Origin: Mycoplasmopsis lipofaciens ATCC 35015 | Lineage (GTDB): Bacteria > Bacillota_I > Bacilli_A > Mycoplasmatales > Metamycoplasmataceae | Assembly: GCF_000686585.1 (NCBI RefSeq) | Contig: NZ_JMKY01000001.1 | Location: 1-64,000 of the forward strand | Direction of reading: 5' to 3' | Length of the DNA: 64,000 bases | Shown: piece by piece, positions 31,587 to 37,876 of the stretch | How positions within the stretch are numbered: position 1 is the first letter of the stretch | How the letters are laid out: every line of letters starts with the position of its first letter | Notes under the pieces: model-generated | The model's input: the letters and a program-made list of their open reading frames with translations, nothing else | Databases searched by the model: none | What the model was told of the DNA's origin: nothing | Program-made: the position numbers and the translations under genes

Positions 31587-32561
31587 ATGAAAAAAGGAAC
31601 AAGTAGAATAGCAATACGAGCTATTGAAAAATATGATAATATCATTATTTTTCATCATATACGTCCAGATGGTGATTGTTTAGGTAGCCAAGCTGGTTTA
31701 GCACAATTAATACGTGATAATTTTCCTAATAAAAAAGTTTTTACACCAGGTGATAATGCTCATACATTTGATTTTATGAATTATCATTTTGATGAAATTG
31801 ATACAATTGATTTTAAAAATTCATTAGGAATTGTTGTTGATGCTTCATCAAGTGATCGAATTCAGGATTCAAGCTTATTATTAGAAAATAAAATGACAGC
31901 AACACTTAGAATTGATCACCATCCAAATGGTAGTGATATTAAATATGACTACTTATGAGTGGATGAACACTATGTTGCAGCAGCAGAAATGATTGCAAAA
32001 ATTGCAAAGGATGCAAAATGAATTATTTCTAAAAAAGCAGCGGAGCATATTTATTTAGGAATTAATACAGATAGTGGTAGATTTTTATATCCTGATACAT
32101 CTTCAAGAACTCATAAATTGGTAGCACACTTGTATGAAAAAGGTAATTTAGAACCTTGAAAAATACATCAAGAGTTGAGCAAAAGATCGATGATTGATTT
32201 AAAATTTATTGGTGAAATTTTAAGCAACTTTAAAAAGAGTGGAAGAGTTTTATATTTTTTAGTTACTAATGAAATTTTAAAAAAATTTAATTTTGATAGT
32301 TTAAAAGCAGCAATTTTTGTTAATGAGTTAGCTAATATAGATGATAATTCATGTTGAGCATTTTTTGTTCAATTAGAAGACGGAAAAATTAGGGGAAGAT
32401 TGCGTTCTAATGGTCCTCTTGTGAATGTTGTTGCGAAAAAATATGGCGGTGGAGGCCATGATAATGCAGCAGGAATAACATTAAATAGTTGAGATCAAAT
32501 AAATAATGTTCTTGATGACTTAAATAAAGCAATTTTTGAATATGAAAAAGGAAGTAAATAA
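31587..32561 (+). CDS. DHH-family phosphoesterase 1 (NrnA-like)
   Basis: 324 residues. DHH motifs I-IV are present: HHIRPDGDCLGSQ (about 22-34), VVDASSSDRI, the eponymous DHH in RIDHHPNG, and TDSGRFLYP. The C-terminal DHHA1 domain ends with YGGGGHDNAAG. Such proteins in mycoplasmas degrade nanoRNA and dephosphorylate pAp. AAGGAG precedes the ATG. The stop overlaps the start of a paralogous DHH gene (TAATG), so the two are a tandem duplication in one transcript. Confidence 0.92.
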
Positions 32562-33532
32562 TGTTAATAGGTACTTACAATGATGCAACCAAATTGATTG
32601 AAAAATATGATAGTATTGTCATATTTCATCATATACGTCCAGATGGCGATTGTTTAGGAAGTCAATTTGGTTTAAGAGAATTAATAAAATTAAATTATCC
32701 CAATAAAAAAATATACGTATTAGGCGATAATAAAGGCATTTTTGAAAATTTTTTAACTTTCGATTTTGATGATATACCAAGTGACAAAATTCTAAGTAAT
32801 TCATTAGGAATTGTTGTTGATGCAAATTATAAAGAAAGAATTGAATTTAGGGAAATTTTAGATAAAAATCTTTTTCCTGAGACACTTAGAATTGATCATC
32901 ATCCAAATGAAGATGATTTACATAATGTAACCAGATGAGTAGATTCTTCAAGAATAGCAGGCGCTGAAATGATTGCAGAATTAGCCATTCAAAATAAATG
33001 AAAGGTAAACTCTTCCGCAGCTAATTTTATTTTTTTAGGTATTGTTACAGACAGTGGCAGATTTTCTTACTCTAATACTTCTGCGAGAACTCACGAATTA
33101 GTATCATTTTTATATAAAAATGGTTTGGAATCAGAAAAAATCTTTTCAGGTTTAGCACAAACGGAATTAAGCGATTTAAAATTACAAGCTTTATTGATGA
33201 AAAATTTAAAAACAGTCGGTAGAGTAGCTTATACAACAATAACATTAAAGGAAACTTTAGAATTAAATAAAAAACCCAACAATGTGGTAAGACCTAATTT
33301 AATTGGCAATTTAAAAGGTTATCCTTTTTGAGTACAATTCAACGAAGAAGAAGATGGAAGAATTAGAGTTGAATTTCGTTCTAACGGCCCATGCGTTAGA
33401 AATGTTGCACTTAAATGAGGTGGCGGCGGACACGAAAGAGCTTCTGGCGCAATGATTAATTCGTTTAAAGATGTTGATAAACTTATTGAAGATTGCAATA
33501 AAGAAGTTGATAGATTTGAACATCAAAAATAA
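32561..33532 (+). CDS. DHH-family phosphoesterase 2 (NrnA-like)
   Basis: A 323-residue paralogue of the preceding protein. It has the same motif order: HHIRPDGDCLGSQ, VVDANYKERI, RIDHHPNEDD, TDSGRFSYS and GGGGHERASG. All metal-binding Asp/His residues are kept, so both copies look active; they differ most in the middle and before DHHA1. The start overlaps the stop of copy 1 by one base, implying coupled translation. Confidence 0.92.
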
Positions 33533-34302: not shown

Positions 34303-35493
34303 ATGGCAAAATTTAAAAGAATATTTATGATTGTAACAGACGGTTTAGGCATAGGTCCTGACAAAGATCAAAAAACATTTGGTGATAAAGGTGCAAATAC
34401 CATTTTGTCAGCTTCAAAATCCGCAATGTTTTTTATAGATACATGAAAAAAAATGGGAATTGGAAATATTACAACTTTAGAGGGTAATTATCATGTAAAA
34501 AAACCATTGGCTTACATGGCTAGAATACAAGAAGTATCAAATGCGAAAGATACATTGGCGGGTCATTGAGAAATGATGGGTATTAAAACAAATGTACCTT
34601 TTCCAACTTTTTTTGAAAATGGCTTTCCTGATGATTTGATTCAAGAATTAGAAAAAGCATTTGATGGAAGAAAAATAATTGGAAATAAAGCTTCGTCAGG
34701 AACAGAAATAATCGACGAATTAGCAATGGAACAAAAAAACAATGGTTCTATAATTGTTTATACATCAATGGATTCAGTTTTACAAATTGCAGCTCATGAG
34801 GAATGAATTGGATTAGATAATTTGTATCGTTATGGGGAAGCGGCAAGAAAAATATGTTCATCTAGACCTGAATGAAATGTTGGAAGAATAATTGTTAGAC
34901 CTTTTGTCGGTTTAGAGGTCGGCAAATTTACTAGAACATTTAATAGACATGATTATGCTAATAAACCTAGAGAAATGATTCTAAATGAATTACAAAAAAA
35001 GGGCGTTGAAGTTATAGGTATTGGTAAAATTAATGATATTTTTGTGGGCCAAGGTATTTCGAGATCTATTCATTCTGATGGAGATGCTCATGCAATGGAT
35101 TTAACAATTGAATTAGCAGCTCAAAATTCAGAAAATCAATTTATTTTTACCAATTTAGTTCAATTTGATTCACATTATGGACATAGAAGAGATGTTAATG
35201 GGTATGCAAATAACATTGCATTATTAGACTCTAAATTAGCTAAATTAGTAAGACTTTTAAAAGAAGATGATTTATTAATTATGACAAGTGATCATGGTAA
35301 CGACCCACTTTATCCAGGGTTTAATCATACAAGAGAACTTTTACCATTAACAATTTATTCTAAATTATTTAAAGATCCTAAAGTATTGGATGATGTTAAT
35401 GGATTAGGAACAACAGGAAATATTGTTGCGAAAAATTTTGGTGTTGATATTGTTACAGAGACTGGAGAAGATATATTTTCTAAACTAAAATAA
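34303..35493 (+). CDS. deoB: Phosphopentomutase
   Basis: Converts ribose- or deoxyribose-1-phosphate to the 5-phosphate in nucleoside salvage. 396 residues, normal length. Metalloenzyme motifs are clear: [10 protein letters not shown] at the N terminus (Asp near 13), DTLAGHWEMMG, the D/H cluster SDHGNDP and FNHTREL near the C terminus. Five TGA codons encode Trp. AAGGAG lies before the ATG. A strong bidirectional terminator follows. Confidence 0.95.
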
Positions 35494-35541: not shown

Positions 35542-35670
35542 ATTAATTATATTCCCAAATACACAAGTATTTTAAATTTTTACATTGTATGTTTCAATTA
35601 AAAAAATTAAAACTTTTCTAATTTAATTAGAAACAAATAAATAAAAACATAAAATTTTATAAATGATAAT

Positions 35671-36144
35671 TTAAATTTTGTGTTCTTTTTTAGTTTTTGT
35701 ATTGATAAACAATCATTTATCAGCTTTGTAAAAAGCTAAAATAGATATACCATTTAATTGATTTATGTGTTTTAAATTAGCAAATTTATTGTTTGATTTA
35801 ACTTGAATGAATTATTTTTGATTATCTTTTAACGCAATTAGATCAATGTCAAGAACCGCATCCTTCACCAAGTCTGTTGTATATACAATAAAATTTTTAG
35901 CTTCCAAATATTGTTTGAATTTATGTTCTTTTCTAAAATTGATAAAACCATAATAAAAAAGAATTTGATAAAGTCTACTAAAGTTATCTTTGGTATGCAT
36001 TTTATTACGTGTTTAAAATGCCCCTAATTTCGAACAAAATTCTTTTTGACATATATCTTGTCATTGTTTGAAAGAAACAAGTTTAAAACGCCATAAGAGT
36101 GCTTTTAAATCTATATTTAAGTCTTGATAAGTCGGGATTTTCAT
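35671..36144 (-). pseudogene. PD-(D/E)XK nuclease-like gene with two in-frame stops
   Basis: One continuous frame of 157 codons on the minus strand from an ATG at 36144 to a TAA at 35671. It is broken only by TAA codons at 36013-36015 and 35812-35814. Across the breaks the protein makes sense: an N-terminal helical part (WRFKLVSFKQWQDIC), a YGFINFRKEHKF segment, then VLDIDLIALKDNQ followed by FIQVKSNN. The D-x-D-x(n)-x-Q-x-K pattern is that of PD-(D/E)XK nucleases. A TATAAT box (36151-36156 on the opposite strand) lies 6 nt before the ATG. No specific family is recognised; a resolvase or restriction-type role is a guess. Confidence 0.65.
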
Positions 36145-36160
36145 AACTATATTATAAAAT

Positions 36161-36187
36161 AAAAAAAGTGTAGCCATAAGACTACAC
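36161..36187 (-). terminator. Intrinsic terminator of the putative RNA
   Basis: On the minus strand GTGTAG-TCTTATGG-CTACAC is followed by seven T. It would end any minus-strand transcript coming from the repeat-rich region at 36190-36540. Confidence 0.75.
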
Positions 36188-36535
36188 CGGGAAAGCAGTT
36201 CAGCTCTTCTCGTGAACTTGCATATTTAATTCCACATATTAATTATAATATATTCCCGAACTAATTTAAGCATTTGGGTTCGTTATTGAAAGAGTTCATA
36301 AGGAATAATATTAATCATACTTGACGAACTATGTAAATATGAAGTCATAATCTAAAGGACTTAATAATACTAACATTTTATATACTATGTCTTAAAAGAC
36401 ATGTATAAAAATATGTTGTTTGTTAAGTCAGAAGGAATAGTTTAAAATATAAACATAGTTCGTCAATTTGTTAAGTTTAAGATTGAGGAATATATGGAAG
36501 TAACGAACCAAAATATAAAAGTCATTAAGTTTAAT
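36188..36535 (-). ncRNA. Putative structured RNA, unidentified
   Basis: A 350-nt non-coding segment with nested complementarity. GGTTCGTTA at 36277-36285 pairs with 36501-36509. TTGACGAACTATGT at 36321-36334 pairs perfectly with 36453-36466. Inside is a long hairpin (about 36359-36428) whose tip is ATGTCTT / AAGACAT. A separate hairpin lies at 36190-36232. The strand is inferred from the minus-strand terminator at 36161-36187 and from TATTAT (about 36532) and TATAAT (about 36243) boxes. I looked for the hallmarks of RNase P RNA, tmRNA, 4.5S RNA and tRNA-like ends and did not find them. It may instead be a palindromic mobile remnant. The boundaries are approximate. Confidence 0.45.
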
Positions 36536-36571
36536 AATACAGAAAAGTTTTAATGATTTATGATTTACAAA

Positions 36572-36606
36572 ATAAAAAAATATATTCCCGATTTTCGGGA
36601 ATATAT
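36572..36606 (-). terminator. Terminator of the rarA-glyA operon
   Basis: Perfect stem TATATTCCCGA / TCGGGAATATA with a TTT loop; on the minus strand it is followed by TTTTTTT, directly after the glyA stop. Confidence 0.9.
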
Positions 36607-36607
36607 A

Positions 36608-37876
36608 TTAATTATATTGAGTAATAATTGGAAATTCTTTTGTTAATTTTAATATTTCTTTTTTTATCAATTTAACTTTTTGAGAGTATATTTCGTCATT
36701 TTGTAAAATTAAATGATGATTTAATAAAATTTCATGAATTATACTTGCTAATTCTTCTCATTTTGTAAAATTACGAGATGTCATAGCAGCAGTTCCCAAT
36801 CTAATGCCTGATGCAATCATAGGACTTTGAGAATCAAAAGGAATAGTATTTTTATTTACTGTTATATTAAATTCACCTAATAATTTTTCAGCTTCTTTTC
36901 CTGTGATTCCATAACTATCATATACATTGATTGTAAATAAGTGATTATCAGTTCCATTCGAAACAATTTTTACACCTTTATTTAAAAAATATTGAGAGAA
37001 TATTTTAGCATTTTTAACAATATTTTTTCCATATTGAATAAATGAAGGTTTAAGGGCTTCGCCAAATGCAACTGCCTTACCTGCAATAGCATGGAATAAC
37101 GGACCGCCTTGATAACCTGGGAAAACTCATCTATTCATTTTTTTTGCAATTTCTTCATTATTAGTCATAATTATTGCGCCTCTTGCTCCTCTAAGAGTTT
37201 TATGTGTTGTTGATGTAACAATATCTGCATAATCTACAGGAGAAGGATGAACCCCTGCAACAATTAAACCTGCTATATGAGCAATATCTACCATTAGTTT
37301 AGCACCGCAACTATCAGCTATTTCTCTAAATTTTTTAAAATCTATTAATCTAGGATAAGCAGAATACCCACAAATGATTACTTGCGGTTTTTCCTTAATT
37401 GCAAATTTTTTAATTTCTTCATAATCTAAATATCCATTTTTATCAACGTCATACGAAACACTATTGTAAAAAATACCACTAAAGCTTATTTTATAACCAT
37501 GTGTTAAATGGCCACCAGAGGCTAGTGATAAACCCATTATTTTATCACCTGGTTTGGCTATACTTGCTAAAGCCGCAGCATTTGCAACTGAGCCAGAATA
37601 GGGCTGAACATTTGCGTATTTAACTTTAAATAATTTTTTTAATCTATTTATTGCCAATGATTCGACAATATCTACATTTTCACAGCCACCATAATATCTT
37701 TGTCCTGGGTAACCTTCTCCATATTTATTGGTTAAAGTACTTCCAACAGCTTTAAGAACATCATTACTAACATAATTTTCACTTGCAATTAATTCGATAT
37801 GTTGTTCTTGACGTTTAGTTTCATTGTTTATGGCTTTTTCTATTTCTTTATCTGCTAATTTAATTCTCTTATACAT
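36608..37876 (-). CDS. glyA: Serine hydroxymethyltransferase
   Basis: PLP enzyme that converts serine and tetrahydrofolate to glycine and methylene-tetrahydrofolate. 422 residues, normal. The substrate loop [17 protein letters not shown] is near 50-66 and the PLP-lysine block [13 protein letters not shown] is near 224-236. Trp-TGA codons carry the frame past 37127 to the TAA at 36608. The start lies 12 nt after pheT, so it is the last gene of the rarA-pheS-ung-pheT-glyA operon. Confidence 0.96.

Follow-up and report, generated by a model that had tools for sequence, protein, structure and literature searches.

Closest described systems and the setting of the locus

To our knowledge, few regulatory RNAs have been characterized in mycoplasmas. 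Among described RNAs, 6S RNA (RF00013) is comparable to the element reported here in that it forms one long irregular hairpin interrupted by a large internal bubble and is of a similar order of length. The two differ in extent, as the hairpin covers 233 nt in the plus-strand RNA predicted here vs. ~190 nt in 6S, and 6S is conserved whereas the long hairpin is without homologues. The RF00013 model gave no match at the locus at E up to 5. The same model matched none of 61 congeners (0/61), so the 6S slot in the genus is open, and promoter mimicry of the 6S type on the plus strand was not above chance. Stand-alone int-exiS elements (C5:20826-22356 of this genome; Mycoplasma phage MAV1; L164, L170, L171, and L174) have a common layout, with two hairpins upstream of int that carry GGAA-7 nt-TTCC and a strong hairpin array downstream of exiS. 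The 7 nt are identical in both copies within an element and different between elements, and these sites look like recombination cores with a variable coupling sequence. Small RNAs encoded in intergenic regions have also been predicted in Mycoplasma, and part of them have been confirmed by RT-PCR (PMC5088518).

The window, the whole 64,000-nt stretch of DNA that was analyzed, belongs to a mycoplasma-type genome of 778,716 bases in six contigs in which TGA is read as tryptophan. The locus lies between gpmI (plus strand, ending at 35493) and glyA (minus strand, 36608..37876), the closest relatives of which are 79-80% identical (e.g., in Mycoplasma sp. CSL7475-4). The glyA-gpmI gap contains two RNA-like elements, a long hairpin and a small RNA-like block, together with a broken exiS-like gene. 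A glyA terminator had been placed beside the interval of interest, and it is indeed found there on the minus strand at 36606-36580; this hairpin (36580..36606) is strong on the minus strand, with a T7 tail, and on the plus strand is a hairpin without a T tract. Elsewhere in the window (31587-33532), two adjoining ORFs that resemble each other (324 and 323 aa, with DHH-like motifs) look like a tandem duplication.

The small RNA-like block and the long hairpin

The original prediction described a single 353-nt element closed by a strong minus-strand terminator. The terminator exists, at 36188-36167, but it ends a separate small RNA-like block rather than the long hairpin, and the interval holds two elements: the terminator, together with the ~75 nt that precede it, makes up a module of its own, which recurs at two further places in the genome. 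The block (36161..36243, minus strand) is ~75-90 nt long, with a predicted RNA of ~72 nt running from ~36235 to ~36164. A second copy follows clpB (C5:25007-25089, minus strand), and a third, here called the C5 copy, lies in the gap between a phosphoketolase-like and a dnaB-like gene, named from their translations (C5:7116-7205, plus strand). A model built from the three copies scores them at 104, 97, and 88 bits (E-values of 1.1e-17, 3.6e-16, and 1.7e-14), and the next match is at 19 bits. Three stems are supported by their alignment (one that closes the block, one of two pairs, and that of the terminator), with 97.8% paired cells vs. 28-42% in slid controls. Five pairs are changed on both sides among the copies, values reached by 5 of 500 shuffles, with the structure drawn from the same three sequences as were used for this count. 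The intrinsic terminator (36167..36188, minus strand) contains compensatory pairs, and its U-G pairs can form on the minus reading only, which sets the sense of the block as minus. Because glyA has its own terminator, this one serves no other gene.

A TATAAT on the minus strand (36242..36247) is a candidate -10 box, 6 nt upstream of the conserved GUGG with which the block starts. In the C5 copy, TAAAAT stands at that same distance, and candidate -10 boxes are thus present in two of the three copies; the clpB copy is without one and may represent only the 3' end or terminator. The two TATAAT boxes at this locus fall within an AT-rich run that is itself palindromic, and they may be chance matches. 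Homology to the C5 copy begins at ~36252, and the long hairpin is thus outside the small RNA module. Among the loci of relatives that were searched, no convincing match to the block was found, the best having an E-value of 0.06. A coding reading of 36230-36180 (IKYASSREELNCF, present in two copies) was considered and set aside in favor of RNA, since it has no protein relatives and the stems covary.

The long irregular hairpin (36272..36514, plus strand) is supported by inverted repeats, shuffle z-scores, and pair probabilities. It comprises an outer stem (36277-36287/36499-36509), a 14-bp stem (36321-36334/36453-36466), a middle stem (36358-36367/36420-36429), and a tip (36387-36402) in which ATGTCTT (36387-36393) pairs with AAGACAT (36396-36402). 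Its geometry had been correctly anticipated: the perfect 14-bp inverted repeat is present and extends to 20 bp at 90%, the 9-bp repeat that encloses it (36277-36285/36501-36509) extends to 14 bp at 93%, and the hairpin with the 7-bp tip lies inside both. The proposal that this complementarity exceeds chance also holds on folding both strands. The 353-nt interval folds at -82.3 kcal/mol (plus) and -73.0 kcal/mol (minus), with z-scores of -6.5 and -5.5 and none of the shuffles as good, and the core at 36272-36514 reaches -8.35 and -7.49 against shuffles. Of the perfect 14-bp inverted repeats in the 779-kb genome whose arms are 20-160 nt apart, the one formed by the arm TTGACGAACTATGT is alone in containing at least 4 G/C. 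Pair probabilities are mostly at least 0.9 in the 14-bp, outer, and middle helices, which stand almost in one register around 36393, separated by symmetric internal loops of ~34 and ~17 nt. In a scan of intergenic regions (682/758 strand-windows), better z-scores belonged mostly to simple terminators, tRNA clusters, and hairpin arrays. Since the internal loops show no excess self-complementarity, simple decay of a perfect palindrome was rejected as the origin of the long hairpin.

No known RNA class had been recognized in this interval, and Rfam covariance models agree: curated scores are not reached at the locus, and the interval has no match at the gathering threshold, nor with E relaxed to 5. 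BLAST against its own genome and those of 98 relatives and 61 congeners found no relative of the long hairpin, and neither did covariance-model searches of the genus (61 congeners) and the order (320 genomes) or searches of phages and plasmids. An arm-pattern search of viral contigs returned three matches of the 9-bp arms, a number judged to be at chance level. A third pattern hit, L054, lies inside a gene and was discarded. The regions downstream of glyA all differ among 28 relatives. As no homologue is found, selection keeping the long hairpin is not evident. A second orphan long irregular hairpin occurs in the same genome at C5:7399-7552, where the small RNA block has its C5 copy 194 nt away, with a 16-bp outer stem, a 20-bp inner stem, and GAAGCGAAG loops; it likewise has no Rfam match.

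Proposed divergent RNA genes and competing readings

We tentatively favor a reading of the locus, based on sequence features, as two divergent non-coding RNA genes that share an AT-rich promoter region. The shared stretch would be 36240-36250. From TATAAT at 36247-36242, transcription on the minus strand would yield the ~72-nt small RNA (36235 to ~36164), a member of the three-copy family with a stem closing its 5' and 3' ends and an intrinsic terminator. From TATAAT at 36244-36249 (plus strand; a consensus match only, with a start at ~36256), plus-strand transcription would yield an RNA of ~350 nt dominated by the 233-nt irregular hairpin. The candidate 3' end of this RNA is the hairpin at 36580..36606, which it would have in common with the glyA transcript as a terminator; the lack of a T tract on the plus strand counts against such an RNA. 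The plus strand is mildly favored for the long hairpin by G-U pairs (80 pairs with 5 G-U in the plus fold vs. 75 pairs with none in the minus fold), by purine-rich loops, and by the TATAAT at 36244. Unpaired bases in the plus fold are 44 A, 15 G, 22 U, and 2 C, and the minus loops are U/C rich. The preference is no more than mild because base composition (shuffles -8.9, sd 3.8) accounts for most of the energy advantage of the plus strand (-12.6), and choice of strand by energy alone was abandoned after this control. As to function, a structured RNA that acts in trans or binds protein would be the most likely. Four AGGA motifs lie within the internal loops of the hairpin or at their margins, against an expectation of 1.07 (a count of four is seen in 1.1% of shuffles), and these motifs match the 16S tail CCTCCTTT, weakly suggesting that they could contact the ribosome or an mRNA start. 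On the 3' side of the hairpin, a 19-codon plus-strand ORF (MEVTNQNIKVIKFNNTEKF, 36494-36553) follows GAGGA; its product is not hydrophobic, and it is probably not meaningful.

It is possible, though we consider it doubtful, that the hairpin is instead a DNA feature with no RNA function, i.e., a palindromic segment or a site of recombination that belongs to a decayed exiS element of the MAV1 type and is bounded by direct copies of CGGGAATATAT. The exiS-like pseudogene (35674..36144, minus strand; PHROG 23846, PD-(D/E)XK/Hjc-like) is homologous to ExiS of Mycoplasma phage MAV1, a member of that family; it is broken by two in-frame TAA codons and lies 128 nt from the hairpin. All three genomic copies of CGGGAATATAT are at this locus; two of them flank the hairpin in direct orientation, and the third is inverted. 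The direct repeat AATATATTCCCGA (TCGGGAATATATT on the minus strand) occupies 36247..36259 (minus), overlapping the -10 boxes, and 36579..36591 (minus), with the inverted copy at 36595-36607. A shorter copy, GGGAATATA, lies on the far side of the pseudogene (35548..35556, minus), and four of the seven genomic occurrences of GGGAATATA fall within 35548-36606. In another species, G001, CGGGAATATAT occurs five times, always flanking exiS copies, and the order of hairpin region, motif, and exiS is common to both species; int-exiS elements, moreover, have hairpin arrays and paired hairpins. Against a DNA feature, two of the three local copies of CGGGAATATAT serve as the arms of the glyA terminator hairpin, an hsdS reading frame contains the two 3' copies of G001, and the motif is absent from G041 and G048 (0 copies) and from the intact int-exiS pair on C5. 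Two paralogous exiS-upstream regions in G001 do form hairpins, whose stems appear by eye to have changed compensatorily (RNAalifold credits two pairs only), but their architecture is different and they are not similar to the long hairpin. The internal loops are also not complementary, unlike those of a decayed perfect palindrome.

The G001 exiS copies (G001:C1:20300-22600 and 547500-550500) have CGGGAATATAT on both sides, stand beside hsdS, and have structured upstream regions, an arrangement that may be a cassette or phase-variation system. In the viral contigs no relative of exiS was found. A type III toxin-antitoxin system or an exiS leader-attenuator was rejected for our locus, as the gene is broken and exiS in most species directly follows int or other phage genes. 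A related proposal, that the hairpin is a multi-copy palindromic mobile repeat, fares unevenly: the long hairpin is single-copy in its own genome by BLAST and covariance model, with no dispersed copies of a REP- or MITE-like repeat found by either, while it stands beside the decayed phage-type exiS and between direct copies of CGGGAATATAT, a motif found next to exiS in another species as well. A mobile-element origin of the hairpin is possible, and the adjoining decayed exiS suggests that a MAV1-type mobile element carried the locus here or rearranged it.

We regard as unlikely a single minus-strand RNA of ~350 nt that would start at ~36510, just inside the outer stem, run through the long hairpin, and end at the 36188-36167 terminator. 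This would account for a strong terminator without another gene, and it is consistent with the minus fold being far from chance (z -7.49) and with a TATATT at 36517-36512 on the minus strand, but the genome has two more copies of the terminator block that are not accompanied by the hairpin, homology of the block to the C5 copy ends at ~36252, and the minus fold has U/C-rich loops and no G-U pairs. Chance folding or a decaying inverted duplication, which might be expected in an AT-rich genome with many weak palindromes and for an element found in one species only, is hard to credit given the z-score of -8.35, the unique GC-containing 14-bp arm, and several helices in one register.

Implications and comparison with known systems

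For the reading as divergent RNA genes, a long structured RNA together with a three-copy small RNA that covaries, both within the same short gap, would provide concrete targets for transcript mapping. If they are tied to exiS, they would also offer a handle on how MAV1-type elements move. A more speculative proposal, to which we give little credence, is that the hairpin belongs, together with exiS and the CGGGAATATAT repeats, to a single mobile unit where a PD-(D/E)XK nuclease of phage origin would partner a structured RNA or hairpin DNA, with G001 carrying related but sequence-divergent versions; if true, such a nuclease-hairpin partnership would be new for mycoplasmas.

Like MAV1 and the stand-alone int-exiS elements, which have strong hairpins beside these genes, the long hairpin adjoins an exiS homologue. 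Unlike them, it is one long irregular hairpin upstream of exiS rather than an array of simple hairpins downstream of it, and int is absent here: no tyrosine recombinase gene overlapping or abutting exiS was found between 36144 and glyA, and the intact int-exiS pair of this genome is elsewhere, on C5. The small RNA block resembles by description the Mycoplasma intergenic sRNAs (PMC5088518) in being intergenic, lineage-specific, and equipped with its own terminator, and differs from them in forming a three-copy family with covariation.
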